Assembly (NCBI GenBank): GCA_018139225.1
Contig: JAGSNX010000002.1
Location: 496,001-560,000 of the forward strand
Direction: 5' to 3'
Length of the DNA: 64,000 nucleotides
DNA from: Microvirga sp. SRT01
GTDB taxonomy: Bacteria; Pseudomonadota; Alphaproteobacteria; Sphingomonadales; Sphingomonadaceae
A program made the translations under genes and the position numbers. This document shows, in pieces, positions 6,225 to 61,506 of this stretch (position 1 is the stretch's first letter; every line of letters begins with the position of its first letter). Under the pieces are notes generated by a model, which did no database searches, was not told the origin of the DNA, and saw nothing but the letters and a program-made list of their open reading frames with translations.

Positions 6225-7451
6225 ATGATCCGTCGTCGCCCCCTCTCCGCCCTCCGCGCTTTCCTCGTCGGGGAAGCGGGGGGTGGTGCCGTGCTGATTG
6301 CGGCGGCGGTCGTGGCGATGGTCACGGCAAATCTGTCGGCGACCGCGCCGGTCTATGAGGCGTTCCTGCACTGGACCACTGGACCGGTCATCGCTCCCGC
6401 GCTGGGGTCGATGACGGTACATCTGTGGATCAACGATGCCGCGATGGCGCTGTTCTTCCTGCTCGTCGGGCTGGAGATCAAGCGGGAGCTGGTCGATGGA
6501 CAGCTTGCCAATCCCAAAAAGCGCCGCCTGCCGATCATAGTCGCGGCGGCGGGGATGGCTGTACCTGCGCTGATCTATTTCGCGGTCGCCGGCAGTACGC
6601 CCGGCCTTGCGCGGGGTTGGGCGATCCCCGCGGCGACCGATATCGCTTTCGCCGTCGGCATCCTCGCGCTGCTCGGCAGCCGGGTGCCGCCGTCACTCAA
6701 GATCTTCCTGACTGCGGTGGCGATCGTCGACGATATGGGTGCAGTGGCAATCATCGCGCTCGCCTACACGCCCGCGGTCGATCTCGGGGCACTGGCGGCG
6801 GCGGCGGGAACGCTGGCGGCGATGATGGCGCTCAACCGGCACAAGGTCGGGGCGGTCTGGCCGTATCTACTCGGGTTCGTGGTGTTATGGTATTGCGTCT
6901 TGCTGTCCGGCGTCCACGCGACGGTCGCGGGCGTGCTGGCGGCGGCGGCGATCCCGCTGACGCTATCGCCGGGCGTTCCCGACGAGCCCGATTCGCCGCT
7001 GCACCGGATCGAGCACGCTCTGGCCGGACCTGTTCTGTACGGCGTCGTCCCGCTGTTCGCCTTCGCCAATGCCGGCGTGTCGCTGCAAGGGATCAGCGCC
7101 GAGACGCTGCTGCATCCGCTGGTCGTCGGCATCGCGGCCGGACTGTTCGTCGGCAAGCAGGCGGGTGTGATCGGCGCAATCTGGCTGGCCGAGCGGCTGG
7201 GGTTTGCCAAACGGCCGGGCGGCGCGGGGTGGATGCAGGTTTACGGCGTCGCGTTGCTCGCGGGGATCGGCTTCACGATGAGCCTGTTCATCGGTCAACT
7301 CGCCTTCCCGGAGGACCCGGTGCTGGCGGAGGAGGTGAAGCTGGGCGTGCTGGGCGGATCGATCGCATCGGCGCTGATCGGCTATTGCGTCCTGCGCCTC
7401 GTCGCCGCCAAAAAGCCGGTATGCAACGCTTCTTCTCCCCCGCCCAGTTGA
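6225..7451 (+). CDS. nhaA: Na+/H+ antiporter NhaA
   Basis: Inner-membrane antiporter that expels Na+ in exchange for protons and keeps the cell tolerant to salt and alkaline pH. The 408 residues contain about a dozen hydrophobic segments. The NhaA signatures are present: PAATDIAFAVG near residue 135 and AIVDDMGAVAIIALAY near 167-180, carrying the paired aspartates that bind the ion. The start ATG at 6225 (MIRRRPLSALRAFL) is chosen because the upstream extension is low-complexity read-through. The 3' end overlaps the following deacylase gene by 31 bp, so the two are probably co-transcribed. Confidence 0.95.
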   Translation: MIRRRPLSALRAFLVGEAGGGAVLIAAAVVAMVTANLSATAPVYEAFLHWTTGPVIAPALGSMTVHLWINDAAMALFFLLVGLEIKRELVDGQLANPKKRRLPIIVAAAGMAVPALIYFAVAGSTPGLARGWAIPAATDIAFAVGILALLGSRVPPSLKIFLTAVAIVDDMGAVAIIALAYTPAVDLGALAAAAGTLAAMMALNRHKVGAVWPYLLGFVVLWYCVLLSGVHATVAGVLAAAAIPLTLSPGVPDEPDSPLHRIEHALAGPVLYGVVPLFAFANAGVSLQGISAETLLHPLVVGIAAGLFVGKQAGVIGAIWLAERLGFAKRPGGAGWMQVYGVALLAGIGFTMSLFIGQLAFPEDPVLAEEVKLGVLGGSIASALIGYCVLRLVAAKKPVCNASSPPPS

Positions 7452-57430: not shown

Positions 57431-57877
57431 ATGTCACGCTCACGTTCCTTCGCCTCCCCCTATGCTTCCGCCCGCGGTGCCACCGCCTCCGGTATCGGCG
57501 AGCCGATCAGCGGGCTGAACATCACGCCGCTGATCGACGTGATGCTGGTGTTGCTGGTGATGATGATCATGATCCTGCCGACGACGCTGCATAAGGTGAC
57601 GATCGACCTGCCTGCGCCCGGCGGCACGACCGAGCCCCGTATCGAGCATCGGCTGGACCTGAGCCGCAGCGGCGTCGCGGTGCTGGACGGCGTGGCGACG
57701 AGCGACACGGCCCTGCCGGCGCGGCTGGCGGTGCTGAAGGCGGATCCGAAGGCGCTGCTGGTGATGAACACCGATCCGGAGGCGCGGTACGAACGCTTCG
57801 ATCAGGTGCTGGCCGTGGTGAAGCGCGCCGGCATCACGCGGCTGGGCTTCGTGGGGAACGAGCGGATGGTGGAGTGA
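57431..57877 (+). CDS. exbD: ExbD/TolR family biopolymer transport protein
   Basis: A 148-residue inner-membrane protein that couples proton motive force to TonB-dependent transport. The N-terminal GLNITPLIDVMLVLLVMMIMI (near residues 29-50) is the single helix with its conserved Asp; the periplasmic ExbD domain follows (LLVMNTDPEARYERFDQVLAVVKRAGITRLGFV). ExbB and TonB genes are not next to it, which is unusual. A decayed copy of its C-terminus lies 0.7 kb downstream. Confidence 0.9.
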   Translation: MSRSRSFASPYASARGATASGIGEPISGLNITPLIDVMLVLLVMMIMILPTTLHKVTIDLPAPGGTTEPRIEHRLDLSRSGVAVLDGVATSDTALPARLAVLKADPKALLVMNTDPEARYERFDQVLAVVKRAGITRLGFVGNERMVE

Positions 57878-58069: not shown

Positions 58070-58146
58070 CTGTCGGGTGCGGGGTGAGCGATACCTCTTC
58101 CCCGCACCCCGGCGGCTACCCACATTCGGGGCATGATGGACAGGGC

Positions 58147-58485
58147 ATGACGGGCAGGGTGAAGCGCAAGGCGGGACTGGCGGCGGCCGCAGCCCGCGCC
58201 GCCGCCGAAGCCGCACCGCCGCCGACCTGCGCGCTGTGCGAGCGGCCGCTGGGCGCGCGGGTGGAGTGGCATCATCTGGTGCCCAAGAGCGAAGGCGGCC
58301 GCGTCACCGCCCCGGTCCACCCGATCTGCCACCGCACGATCCACGCGACGCTGCCGAACGGGGAATTGGCGCGGGCCTATGCCGACCCGGCGGTCCTGCG
58401 CGACCACCCCGCGATCGCGCGCTTCCTGCGCTGGGTGGCGGACAAACCGGCGGACTTCTCGGTGCCGGTGAGACGGGGGCGGTGA
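58147..58485 (+). CDS. HNH endonuclease family protein
   Basis: A small protein of 112 residues with one HNH nuclease motif: CALC then WHHLVPKSEGG (catalytic His), and HPICHRTIHATL. The zinc/structural cysteines (CALC, ICH) fit the beta-beta-alpha-Me fold. The ATG at 58147 (MTGRVKRKAGL) is chosen; an upstream in-frame GTG at 58084 is less likely. It follows a pair of opposed palindromic repeats. Cellular function unknown. Confidence 0.82.
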   Translation: MTGRVKRKAGLAAAAARAAAEAAPPPTCALCERPLGARVEWHHLVPKSEGGRVTAPVHPICHRTIHATLPNGELARAYADPAVLRDHPAIARFLRWVADKPADFSVPVRRGR

Positions 58486-58562
58486 GGGTGGGGTTTGACC
58501 AGTGAGTTCCACTTTGTCTCAGCCTATGGGTCCAACTGTCGTCCAGCAGGGTTTGCGTTTGC

Positions 58563-58712
58563 AAGGCGCTGCGCGCGGACCCCGCTGCGCTGCTGGTGAT
58601 GCGGACCGGCCCGGAGGCGCGCTACGACCGCTTCGACTAGGTGCTGGCCGAGGTGAAGCGCGCAGGAATTACGCGGCAGGGCTTTGCAGGGAGTGAGGCA
58701 GTGGTGGAGTGA
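58563..58712 (+). pseudogene. Decayed copy of the exbD 3' end
   Basis: Translated in frame, this stretch reads KALRADPAALLVMRTGPEAR, then YDRFD, a stop, and VLAEVKRAGITRQGFAGSEA, then VVE and a stop. It aligns along about 50 residues with the C-terminus of ExbD at 57431-57877 (KADPKALLVMNTDPEARYER...). A TAG at 58638-58640 replaces the Gln codon of ExbD. The N-terminal half is missing. It is a partial duplicate that has lost function. Confidence 0.88.
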
Positions 58713-58716
58713 GGAC

Positions 58717-59388
58717 TCAGGTATTATTTGATCTACGCATCGTGATAAGCTCAGGTAACATGATTTCTTCATGGCAGAAATTCGCATAGCGATAAAGCCA
58801 AGCTGTTTTGCTACGAACACGTGGACTTGACTTCGTTAAAGAAGGTCGGAACTTTTCTAATATTCCGGAAACATGGTTTCCGTCTAGATGTCCTAAATAG
58901 TCTAAGAAAGCCTCATTATCAACATCACGTATAAGAAAGTCGAGCTTTGCACCGGTAGGATACAAAAGGTCCAATGTTTCGCCGGAAACAACAATTCTAG
59001 GATCGGTCGCTACTTGGCTTTTCAGCCTATATGCATCAATCAATCCTTGGCTGAACAGCAAAGTCTCATCATGGAAGTGCCGGCCATGACTTATTCCGCC
59101 GCGGCATAAAATACCTGCGTTAAAAAGAAGGCTTTGTAAGTCACGCACTAATCGCAGGTGCTGTTCGAATTCTTCGCAACTCGTCGAAAACGGCGACGAT
59201 ACAACTATGCTGTCAGAAAACTGAGTTATCTTCGAATTTATTGATGTGGCGCTTGCTAAGGCGGTGTGGATGGCCGCCTTTAGGCTAGGAAGATATGTTG
59301 TCCCGGGAGCGGCGTTCTCATAGTCCGCTACCACCATCTCGCCAAAGCCAAGAATATCAACAAAGGCGACGAAGCTCAAACCAATCAA
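58717..59388 (-). CDS. Divergent class III nucleotide cyclase-like protein
   Basis: A 223-residue protein, AT-rich unlike its neighbours. It is not a named family to me, but the order of motifs fits a class III nucleotidyl cyclase fold: FVAFVDILGFGEMV with a metal-type Asp11, KITQFSDSIVVSSP with a second Asp59, CRGGISHG, and SQGLIDAYRLKSQ with Arg121 followed by PRIVVS. The usual catalytic Asn is not seen, so activity is uncertain. The start is TTG at 59388, in a TTGA overlap with the ATPase gene. Confidence 0.72.
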   Translation of the reverse strand: MIGLSFVAFVDILGFGEMVVADYENAAPGTTYLPSLKAAIHTALASATSINSKITQFSDSIVVSSPFSTSCEEFEQHLRLVRDLQSLLFNAGILCRGGISHGRHFHDETLLFSQGLIDAYRLKSQVATDPRIVVSGETLDLLYPTGAKLDFLIRDVDNEAFLDYLGHLDGNHVSGILEKFRPSLTKSSPRVRSKTAWLYRYANFCHEEIMLPELITMRRSNNT

Positions 59389-60443
59389 GAAAGTGTCTCC
59401 ACCCGTTCGGCTAGCCGAGAAAGCTCAGACTTGTAGCTAGTCATTCTTTCAACGGCTTGATCCCAAACCTTTCCTTGCCAAGGATGACCTTCGTTCACGA
59501 TGCGAGTGTCATTCTTTTCTATACCAAAGACTGGCTTTCCAGTTTCCTGCATTAGCGGCGCCAAGCCAACAAAATCAGGAATTTTTGCGACGATGCAATC
59601 TTCGGCGGTAATGCCTTGAGAAAGTGACACGCCCTCAATCGCCCCGTCTAGTGCAGGCTTTAGCTTGTCCGAGTATCGACCCGGCATGCGAGATATCCAC
59701 AGTTCGTAGCTCTTTTTGGGTTTGCCGCTAATCATTTTGAAGTTTTGAGAAATAATTCCGAGAAAGAGCGGCGTGCCTGGTCTGATCGGTAGTCCTTGAT
59801 CGATAAAAGATGCATATATCTGCTGGTGCTCACTTATCCAGCGCCTAAGGATCGTAGATAGAGTACCAATTGCTTGAACGTTAAACCGATCAGGCATAGA
59901 CGGAACGAAGAAACCATCGCAGACTAAAAAGCATGCGCGTGTCAGGGCGCCGGAACTCGGACCTACATCGATTAGAACGTAATCAATAGAGTGCTTTACG
60001 GCCAACCTCTCTATAAACGATCCCATCGCTACATAAGTTCGTTTTTCGTGAGTTTTATTAGAAAATCTTTGGGTATGGGCTTCGGCTAACGAATCTTCAA
60101 TATCGCTTAAATTAACATCACCTCTGAGTAGAAGCATATTAGGCGAAACCGGTATCAGTTCGACCGAATCGATGTCCACCTCTGGGACGTCTCCATCTAT
60201 CCTTGGTCTTAGCGCTTCCAAGATAGTAGATCCCGGAAGCGGCTGCGGAACCCCAGTATCCGCTTCCTTTGTGTCTGCTTCTTGGATCGTCTGCGAAATT
60301 AACAACTCGGTCAAATTACACTGAGGATCTGCGTCAACCACCAGCACTCTACCGCCACGTTCAGCTAAAAGGTGCGCTAAGTTGAACGTCGTAGTCGTTT
60401 TCGAAACGCCACCTTTGTGGTTGTAGAGCGTGATGATCTTCAT
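59385..60443 (-). CDS. ParA/MinD-family ATPase
   Basis: A 352-residue P-loop ATPase. The deviant Walker A is HKGGVSKTTTTFN (residues 9-21, with the signature Lys15), then VVDADPQCN near 37-43 and IDVGPSS near 158-164. A long C-terminal part after residue 200 is not typical of plasmid ParA. No ParB gene is near. The start ATG at 60443 follows the nrdB stop by 4 bp on the same strand. The gene is AT-rich next to high-GC neighbours, suggesting acquisition. Confidence 0.85.
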   Translation of the reverse strand: MKIITLYNHKGGVSKTTTTFNLAHLLAERGGRVLVVDADPQCNLTELLISQTIQEADTKEADTGVPQPLPGSTILEALRPRIDGDVPEVDIDSVELIPVSPNMLLLRGDVNLSDIEDSLAEAHTQRFSNKTHEKRTYVAMGSFIERLAVKHSIDYVLIDVGPSSGALTRACFLVCDGFFVPSMPDRFNVQAIGTLSTILRRWISEHQQIYASFIDQGLPIRPGTPLFLGIISQNFKMISGKPKKSYELWISRMPGRYSDKLKPALDGAIEGVSLSQGITAEDCIVAKIPDFVGLAPLMQETGKPVFGIEKNDTRIVNEGHPWQGKVWDQAVERMTSYKSELSRLAERVETLS

Positions 60444-60447
60444 CGTA

Positions 60448-61506
60448 TTACTCCGCCGCAACCCCAGCCCGCGAGAACATGTCGCCGGTTTGCAGACCCA
60501 GATCCTGCTCCGTCGGGCGGATGATCTTCGCCTTCTGGCGCTTGTCGAACGAGTCCCAGACGTCGTTCCACTGGCCCTTGGTCGCGGCCTTCGAATATTC
60601 GGTGGCGCGCTGTTCGAAGAAATTGGCGTGCTCGACGCCGTTGAGCATCGGCGCGAGCCAGGGCAGGGGGTGCTCGTCGATCATGTAGATCGGCTTCAGG
60701 CCGAGCTGGCCCATGCGCCAGTCGGCGATGAAGCGGATGTACTTCTTGATCTCCTTGGGCGTCATGCCGTTGACCGGACCCATTTCGAACGCGAGGTCGA
60801 TGAAATTGTCCTCGAGCCGGATCGTGGTCTGGCACACGTCGGCGATGTCGTCCTTCACCGCCTTGGTCAGGCACTGGCGCTCCTGACAGAAGGTGTGGAA
60901 CATCTTGATGATGCCCTCGCAGTGCAGCGACTCGTCGCGGATCGACCAGGTGACGATCTGGCCCATGCCCTTCATCTTGTTGAAGCGCGGGAAGTTCATC
61001 AGCATCGCGAAGCTGGCGAAGAGCTGCACGCCCTCCGTGAAGCCGCCGAACATGGCGAGCGTGCGGGCGATGTCCTCGTCGCTGTCGACGCCGAAGTTCT
61101 GCATGTAGTCATGCTTCTCCTTCATCTCGGCATATTCGAGGAAGGCGCCATACTCGCTCTCGGGCATGCCGATCGTGTCGAGCAGGTGGCTGTAGGCGGC
61201 GATGTGGACCGTCTCCATGTTGCTGAACGCGGTCAGCATCATCTTGATCTCGGTCGGCTTGAACACGCGGCCGTATTTCTCGTGGTAGCAATCCTGCACC
61301 TCGACGTCCGCCTGCGTGAAGAAGCGGAAGATCTGGGTGAGCAGGTTACGCTCGTGATCGGTCAGCTTCTGCGCCCAGTCGCGGCAATCCTCGCCCAAGG
61401 GCACTTCCTCGGGGAGCCAGTGGAGCTGCTGCTGACGCTTCCAGAACTCGAACGCCCAGGGGTATTCGAACGGCTTGTACTGCTTGGAGGCGTGAAGGAG
61501 GGACAT
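60448..61506 (-). CDS. nrdB: Ribonucleoside-diphosphate reductase beta subunit (class Ia)
   Basis: Small subunit carrying the diiron-tyrosyl radical for dNTP synthesis. In the 352 residues the iron ligands are visible: D67, E98 and H101 (NMETVHIAAYSH), with the radical Tyr105 spaced as in E. coli; ESLHCEG and further His/Glu follow. It pairs with nrdA, which lies upstream (at higher coordinates) on the same strand, and the two are separated by three small genes. Immediately downstream is the ATPase/cyclase-like cassette. Confidence 0.96.
   Translation of the reverse strand: MSLLHASKQYKPFEYPWAFEFWKRQQQLHWLPEEVPLGEDCRDWAQKLTDHERNLLTQIFRFFTQADVEVQDCYHEKYGRVFKPTEIKMMLTAFSNMETVHIAAYSHLLDTIGMPESEYGAFLEYAEMKEKHDYMQNFGVDSDEDIARTLAMFGGFTEGVQLFASFAMLMNFPRFNKMKGMGQIVTWSIRDESLHCEGIIKMFHTFCQERQCLTKAVKDDIADVCQTTIRLEDNFIDLAFEMGPVNGMTPKEIKKYIRFIADWRMGQLGLKPIYMIDEHPLPWLAPMLNGVEHANFFEQRATEYSKAATKGQWNDVWDSFDKRQKAKIIRPTEQDLGLQTGDMFSRAGVAAE

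Follow-up and report, generated by a model that had tools for sequence, protein, structure and literature searches.

A ParA-type ATPase gene and an overlapping cyclase-fold gene form an acquired, conserved two-gene module, probably of a defence or toxin type

The locus was studied in a window of 64,000 nucleotides from Microvirga sp. SRT01 (contig JAGSNX010000002.1), which is the whole stretch of DNA that was analysed. As the preliminary description had reported, it contains two overlapping open reading frames on the minus strand: a gene for a ParA-type ATPase of 352 aa (59385..60443) with an ATG start, and a gene for a partner protein of 223 aa (58717..59388), a member of a compact subfamily, with a TTG start. 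The ParA stop and the partner start share the sequence TTGA (59385..59388, minus strand). Judged from sequence, this overlap likely couples the translation of the two genes; -4 was also the commonest spacing between them in relatives (16/50, with naive starts). GGTGGAG (59397..59403, minus strand), 8 bases 5' of the TTG, is a likely ribosome-binding site of the partner gene. The ORF list offers an alternative upstream ParA start, TTG at 60461, and we took ATG at 60443 as the start because it fits the alignment with relatives. Between the ParA start codon and the stop of nrdB (60448..61506, minus strand; ribonucleotide reductase small chain, Pfam Ribonuc_red_sm E 1.8e-74) there are 3 to 4 bases. 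An intact exbD lies at 57431-57877, and its 3' end recurs as a partial copy (58562..58714, plus strand; 85% identity to the exbD end of the relative L220) at the border of the tract that holds the pair. This duplicate has an in-frame stop and is a possible trace of the insertion event. A short HNH-like ORF (58084-58485), whose Pfam match was below the cut-off, is found between exbD and the insert.

The two genes fill an AT-rich tract, predicted to be acquired, that extends from the end of the exbD fragment to the nrdB stop (58715..60447). Its GC content is 0.465 compared with 0.678 in the remaining window, and the GC at third codon positions is 0.469 in ParA and 0.435 in the partner gene, compared with 0.926 in nrdB, 0.899 in exbD and about 0.9 over the three neighbours, so the low GC noted from two lines of sequence held for the whole tract and for codon use. 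In L220, a relative without the cassette, matches to the window end at 58714 and resume at 60448. In between, L220 carries some 660 bases of different, GC-rich DNA and thus does not offer a clean empty site; the tract borders (about 58715-60447) were accordingly set by homology and GC. Pfam detected no ParB, replication or transposase gene among the three scanned neighbours (ExbD, the HNH-like ORF and NrdB), in agreement with the preliminary description.

Residues 1-202 of the ATPase matched Pfam AAA_31 (E 1.5e-27), which confirmed its ParA type. Because AAA_31 covers these residues only, the long C-terminus noticed before is real. The protein has a deviant Walker A motif (NHKGGVSKTT), and K10, K15, D39 and D159 were kept in 49/49 aligned clade members; it thereby has the two-lysine deviant Walker A and the A' and Walker B aspartates of SIMIBI ATPases. 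Its AlphaFold2 model (pLDDT 95.7) matched best the PDB entry 3pg5 (DIP2308, uncharacterised; E 4.8e-15), followed by ParA, Soj and McdA. In PADLOC, just matches of the Walker region were obtained, to the candidate PDC-M28B over residues 3-44 (best E 6.3e-7). Compared with the sphingomonad locus L138, the window ParA is 82% identical and the partner 58%.

The partner protein belongs to no Pfam family, had no PADLOC match up to E 10, and gave one chance match in NCBIfam (E 0.1). It matched phrog_23933, a PHROGs family with no assigned function, with E 6.7e-35. The motifs DILGF, FSDS, RGGISHG, AYRL and PRIVVS, from which a divergent class III nucleotide cyclase had been proposed, are present in its translation. 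An AlphaFold2 model built with a 52-sequence alignment (pLDDT 95.5, pTM 0.92) was compared with known structures, and the best 50 PDB rows listed were all class III cyclases. The model superimposed on human soluble adenylyl cyclase (4cll) with Z 15.5 and rmsd 3.2 Å over 154 residues, with residues 169-223 barely covered by the comparison; Foldseek gave a best E of 1.8e-6 and modest TM-scores, about 0.4-0.5 by query length. A profile of the wider partner family (12 sequences) gave seven weak matches to PDB sequences within E 10 (best E 0.27), all named cyclase or adenylate cyclase. According to the predicted structure, then, the partner protein has a class III cyclase fold, as had been proposed. 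PycC is not among the best 50 PDB rows listed, an absence that excludes nothing. In a viral structure library only a giant-virus 'response regulator' reached E <= 0.001, and next came a giant-virus guanylate cyclase domain (3.2e-3) and then mostly unrelated polymerase rows. As a single query, the protein had no match in a phage tblastn or the viral scan, and alignments were needed.

Nine residues (D11, S58, D59, R96, H104, S113, P130, R131 and W197) are invariant in 52/52 partner proteins. D11 aligned with the first metal aspartate in a weak profile match, and D59 was placed by motif alone; we take the two as putative fits to the two metal-binding aspartates of class III cyclases. For catalysis, a transition-state Asn and Arg also matter in these enzymes. 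The position aligned with the Asn (117) is N in 0/52 proteins, and that aligned with the Arg (121) is variable and R in 2/52, so the proposal that Arg121 is an active-site residue found no support. Position 55, which we place opposite the purine-selecting lysine of cyclases, is variable among the 52 proteins. The window partner has K123 (codon 59020-59022), where the other 51/52 have E, and since this lysine is unique to it, the window copy may be altered. The signalling role suggested earlier was dropped because the Asn and Arg positions are lost and the scanned neighbours include no cyclic-nucleotide receptor.

To see how far the pairing extends, the cyclase-paired ParA clade served as the query against genome contigs, and of 308 relatives the best 80 were taken. 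Seventy-nine loci had a ParA ORF, with a cyclase-fold gene behind it in 50, a HEPN gene in 16, another ORF in six and none in seven; L198 and L200, among the last seven, carry broken HEPN-like remnants. Every full-length ParA of the clade in these best 80 of 308 loci had a cyclase-fold gene directly behind it (50/50), by a criterion for 'full-length' set after looking at the loci. As the scan began from the clade, this number describes the cyclase-paired clade and not ParAs at large. The clade members with incomplete ParA (L151, L182, L185 and L191) had a truncated or cut ParA and no adjacent partner, and L185 had a partner-like ORF elsewhere on the contig. In the 50 loci besides the window the genes are in the same order with gaps of -82 to +36 bases (naive starts); an arrangement so uniform, adjacent or overlapping in 50 other loci, indicated that the pair is not a chance one. 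ParA and partner distances were correlated (r = 0.93, 49 pairs; maximum of 2000 permutations 0.23), a value that includes shared host ancestry.

In a quick tree of 127 ParA rows, in which long branches were flagged and some partner labels were set by eye, 56 cyclase-paired ParAs formed one group with support 100. L151, L185, L191 and L200 were dropped from this tree, seven plasmid rows were included and L024 and L025 left out; 44/80 viral loci were entered by hand, and the 36 omitted were duplicates only in part. L161 is present in A7 and the tree and absent from A6. The hosts of the cyclase pair are Pseudomonadota, Bacillota, Bacteroidota, Verrucomicrobiota, Thermodesulfobacteriota and one Methanosarcinales bin, whose contig is short and may be misbinned. 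The pair was also found on five IMG/VR contigs, with viral status taken from the IMG/VR listing alone.

A conserved third gene was considered and not borne out by a Pfam scan of neighbour ORFs. The scan took 71/95 upstream and 82/96 downstream ORFs from a naive finder, which at nrdB chose the wrong strand in L171 and L186. Among the first 25 families listed, none besides nrdB occurred in more than three ORFs, and none was a ParB family.

Members of the wider partner family were also found without ParA. The family had matches on 41 plasmid records, and among the ten examined only CP131057 has an adjacent ParA of the kind studied here. In 398 Pseudomonadota genomes a partner-family match was present in 14, and ParA lay within the 1.5-kb flanks only in the window genome and G476. 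On viral contigs, 3/26 members were paired and one more had a ParA match 2.6 kb off. Thus the expectation of a conserved pair held for the compact subfamily, with its 50/50 full-length ParAs, and only in part for the wider small-protein family, so that not every member of it can depend on ParA for restraint. Three plasmid relatives without ParA (L011, L016 and L018) have annotated neighbours that include a patatin-like phospholipase, an AbiEii-type protein, a UvrD-helicase and VapC.

Different genes occupy the second position behind more distant ParAs, overlapping or within a few bases: HEPN (PF18735), SIR2_2 (PF13289) and RelA_SpoT (PF04607). In the tree, ParAs labelled RelA/SpoT and SIR2 were on a branch neighbouring the cyclase group, and those labelled HEPN, which include Microcystis loci, were on another. 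The HEPN label was set by eye for L198, L206 and L066, the last without a Pfam match. In a set of 80 viral ParA loci the partner has the cyclase fold in five, and the HEPN proteins confirmed by Pfam belong to a single partner cluster with 20 members. ParAs without a recognised partner are common (34/127 tree rows), so ParA alone may have a function.

Several individual loci of this wider ParA family were recorded. A RelA/SpoT-type gene follows ParA, overlapping by 4 or within 8 bases, in L096 (1841-2644), L213 (8973-9776) and L216 (2258-3001); the label is Pfam-confirmed in L096 and was given by eye to L213 and L216 from similarity to L096. These might be toxSAS-like dyads. On Neorhizobium and Burkholderia replicons, ParA overlaps a SIR2-like gene (L028, 6001-6858; L029, 5980-6846). 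In L098 a ParA of the wider family is followed, after about 200 bases, by a SocA/Panacea-type antitoxin gene (6245-6751). The family is carried by phages Pf1, WX-TY, ST160 and SE1, and filamentous Pseudomonas phages with such a ParA were seen in L272 (3073-4026) and L275 (2676-4308). The ParA of Pseudomonas phage WX-TY overlaps a gene of 202 codons, and that of ST160 is separated from a CI-like repressor by one gene.

The proposal that the cassette was acquired found support in two comparisons. GC was more than 3 points under that of the flanks in 49/50 loci (median -17). Between the window and L138, identity at fourfold sites was 30% for ParA (37/124) and 78% for nrdB (98/126); fourfold identity was used, and no dN/dS, since synonymous sites of the cassette are saturated. 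This result suggests that the cassette was not inherited together with its neighbour nrdB. The cassette is located 0-371 bases behind nrdB in the window and in 7/50 loci, namely the sphingomonads L138, L139 and L171 and the Pseudomonas loci L140, L168, L186 and L187; that the pair always stands behind nrdB was accordingly rejected. The nrdB-site cassettes and the window represent four branches of the ParA tree, and, given the difference at fourfold sites, each probably entered this site, or was replaced there, independently of the others.

The site behind nrdB was then compared in hosts that carry other DNA there. Among relatives of the same genus (15 loci examined and 8 extended, without L228 and L235, whose contigs end there), other low-GC DNA was found behind nrdB in 5/15. 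This cargo includes a gene for an AAA_21 (AbiEii-type) ATPase and two of the HipA_2 family, and behind each of the HipA_2 genes stands a gene that matches DUF3037 below the threshold. A further family, f49, consists of 15 loci (L276-L290) whose NrdB shares 84-96% identity with the NrdB of Pseudomonas sp. ACN8. In 9/15 of them the GC of the DNA behind nrdB fell short of that of nrdB by more than 10 points; one of these nine stretches is just 83 bases long. Ten of the 15 loci were tested with PADLOC (L281, L282, L283, L284 and L290 were left out), counting the nrdB site alone; 5/10 genes matched at E <= 1e-8, to dCTPase, SIR2, type I methylase, dGTPase and the candidate PDC-M18A, and the other 5/10 had no match at this threshold. 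The dCTPase and dGTPase genes adjoin ribonucleotide reductase in this family. Because 4/10 tested genes point against nrdB, not all cargo of the site can ride on the nrdB transcript. By sequence comparison, the 3' site of nrdB is a hotspot for low-GC insertions in two groups of hosts (L276-L290 and L247-L251). No mention of it was found in the titles, abstract openings and passages surveyed in a full-text collection with few subscription journals or bioRxiv papers, and nrdB and ParA are absent from the main text of a 2025 article on Pseudomonas defence hotspots (PMC12629846).

We concluded that the ParA and cyclase-fold genes form a genuine two-gene module that was acquired and is well conserved. 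Since known types of toxin occupy the partner position of related ATPases, the pair is probably an undescribed defence or toxin module, mobile and present in several bacterial phyla and one archaeal genome bin. By analogy, a function in genome conflict is likely; the HEPN, SIR2 and RelA partners of related ParAs and the PADLOC-matching genes behind nrdB agree with the conflict-type setting that had been expected from the gene architecture.

What was computed comprises both folds, the conserved pairing, the correlated divergence, the signs of horizontal transfer, the different partners and the defence-type site. The explanation that we prefer, and to which we give an even chance, is a two-gene conflict module in which ParA would act as an ATP-driven gate and the cyclase-fold enzyme as the effector. 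It is drawn from the interchangeable toxin-type enzymes, from the site and mobility, which fit conflict, and from the postulate on ParA and HEPN genes discussed below. The module would be of a genome-conflict type, abortive-infection or toxin-antitoxin. Inserted behind nrdB, the pair is probably co-transcribed with it. ParA, as the common regulatory chassis, would be made first, form ATP-dependent dimers, and physically hold or gate the partner. As an enzyme of class III cyclase fold, the partner probably has a nucleotide as its substrate and an altered chemistry, because the two putative metal aspartates are kept and the canonical transition-state residues are lost. Released by some trigger, it would be toxic, stopping growth or phage production.

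The same features were weighed for other explanations. If the partner were not an enzyme and instead a nucleotide-binding sensor controlling ParA, the active protein would be ParA, perhaps on DNA. The lost transition-state positions, the invariant ATPase motifs of ParA (49/49) and its better conservation relative to the partner in the comparison with L138 are in line with this, as is 6yii, rank 49 among the PDB matches, which is titled a class III cyclase-like ATP-binding protein. However, the putative metal aspartates together with R96, H104 and R131 are invariant in 52/52 proteins, as expected of an active site, and the fold occurs also without ParA, so that we regard a sensor as unlikely. 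A second-messenger system of the Pycsar kind, with a cyclic nucleotide made by the partner and ParA or a host receptor as its sensor, would account for the predicted class III cyclase fold and for D11 and D59 in all 52 proteins, one of which weakly matches PycC (E 0.025). Such a system seems quite improbable, since the Asn and Arg positions are not retained, no receptor gene is among the three scanned neighbours, the neighbours of relatives hold no recurrent Pfam family besides nrdB (in more than three ORFs, first 25 listed), and HEPN, SIR2 and RelA types fill the slot in related ParAs.

The location directly behind nrdB, in the window and in seven sphingomonad and Pseudomonas loci, could also mean that the pair is a ribonucleotide reductase accessory that senses or tunes the dNTP supply. 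We consider this very unlikely, as there is no nrdB upstream in 43/50 loci (some of whose contigs end close by) and unrelated low-GC cargo, defence-type genes included, occupies the same site elsewhere. Still less probable is a remnant of a plasmid or phage partition system; it would explain the fold and motifs of ParA, whereas no ParB is among the scanned neighbours and the conserved second gene has a cyclase fold.

A broader version of the preferred gate-and-effector module can be proposed only tentatively. ParA would be a general immune chassis of phages, plasmids and chromosomes for interchangeable effectors (HEPN RNase, SIR2 NADase, RelA/SpoT synthetase and the cyclase-fold enzyme), the cyclase version would be anti-phage with a new chemistry, and the nrdB slot would be a defence hotspot where co-oriented genes such as the pair could ride on the reductase operon. 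If gating is right, ParA, known mainly for moving DNA, would double as a switch that can be reused with one toxic enzyme or another, and the cyclase fold, its active-site positions altered, may represent an effector of new chemistry. The nrdB hotspot is a place to look for more systems. The pair is compact (1.7 kb), conserved and easily cloned, and direct tests are feasible.

Among known systems, Pycsar consists of the PycC cyclase and an effector. The window pair resembles it in having a class III cyclase fold in a mobile module of conflict type. It differs in that the partner has no PycC match and does not keep the Asn and Arg positions, and in that the window has a ParA and no adjacent cyclic-nucleotide-binding effector among NrdB, the HNH-like ORF and ExbD. 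With ParABS the window shares the ParA ATPase fold and nucleotide motifs, but its ParA has no ParB beside it, and the adjacent genes are nrdB and the cyclase-fold gene. The Gifsy-1 region STM14_3218-3220 is, by description, similar in having a ParA-like ATPase without ParB in a prophage immunity region (PMC9879122). This three-gene region is required for the activation of RtcR, whose signal is RNA with a 2',3'-cyclic phosphate; the neighbours of the ParA-like gene are without assigned function. MinD/ParA-like domains also occur in NTP-dependent conflict systems, where they are predicted to be inactive and listed as effectors, not regulators (PMC7159879), in contrast to the invariant ATPase motifs of the window clade.

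No mention of a ParA and cyclase pair was found in the titles, abstract openings and passages of the same full-text collection, which has few subscription journals or bioRxiv papers. This agrees with the earlier statement that no system with this pair is described, although dyads of ParA/Soj and HEPN genes were postulated in 2013 to be toxin-antitoxin systems with ParA as the antitoxin (Anantharaman et al. 2013, PMC3710099). In that dyad (MAE_18760 family) a ParA gene is followed by a short toxin-like gene; the window pair agrees with it in gene order and overlap, its second protein being a putative toxin. The window partner differs in lacking HEPN (no Pfam match) and having the cyclase fold, and its ParA belongs to a separate clade with support 100, whereas the HEPN-paired ParAs found here, whose partners are Pfam RiboL-PSP, form another branch of the same tree. 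The cyclase-fold version is thus a variant of the postulated ParA-toxin dyad.
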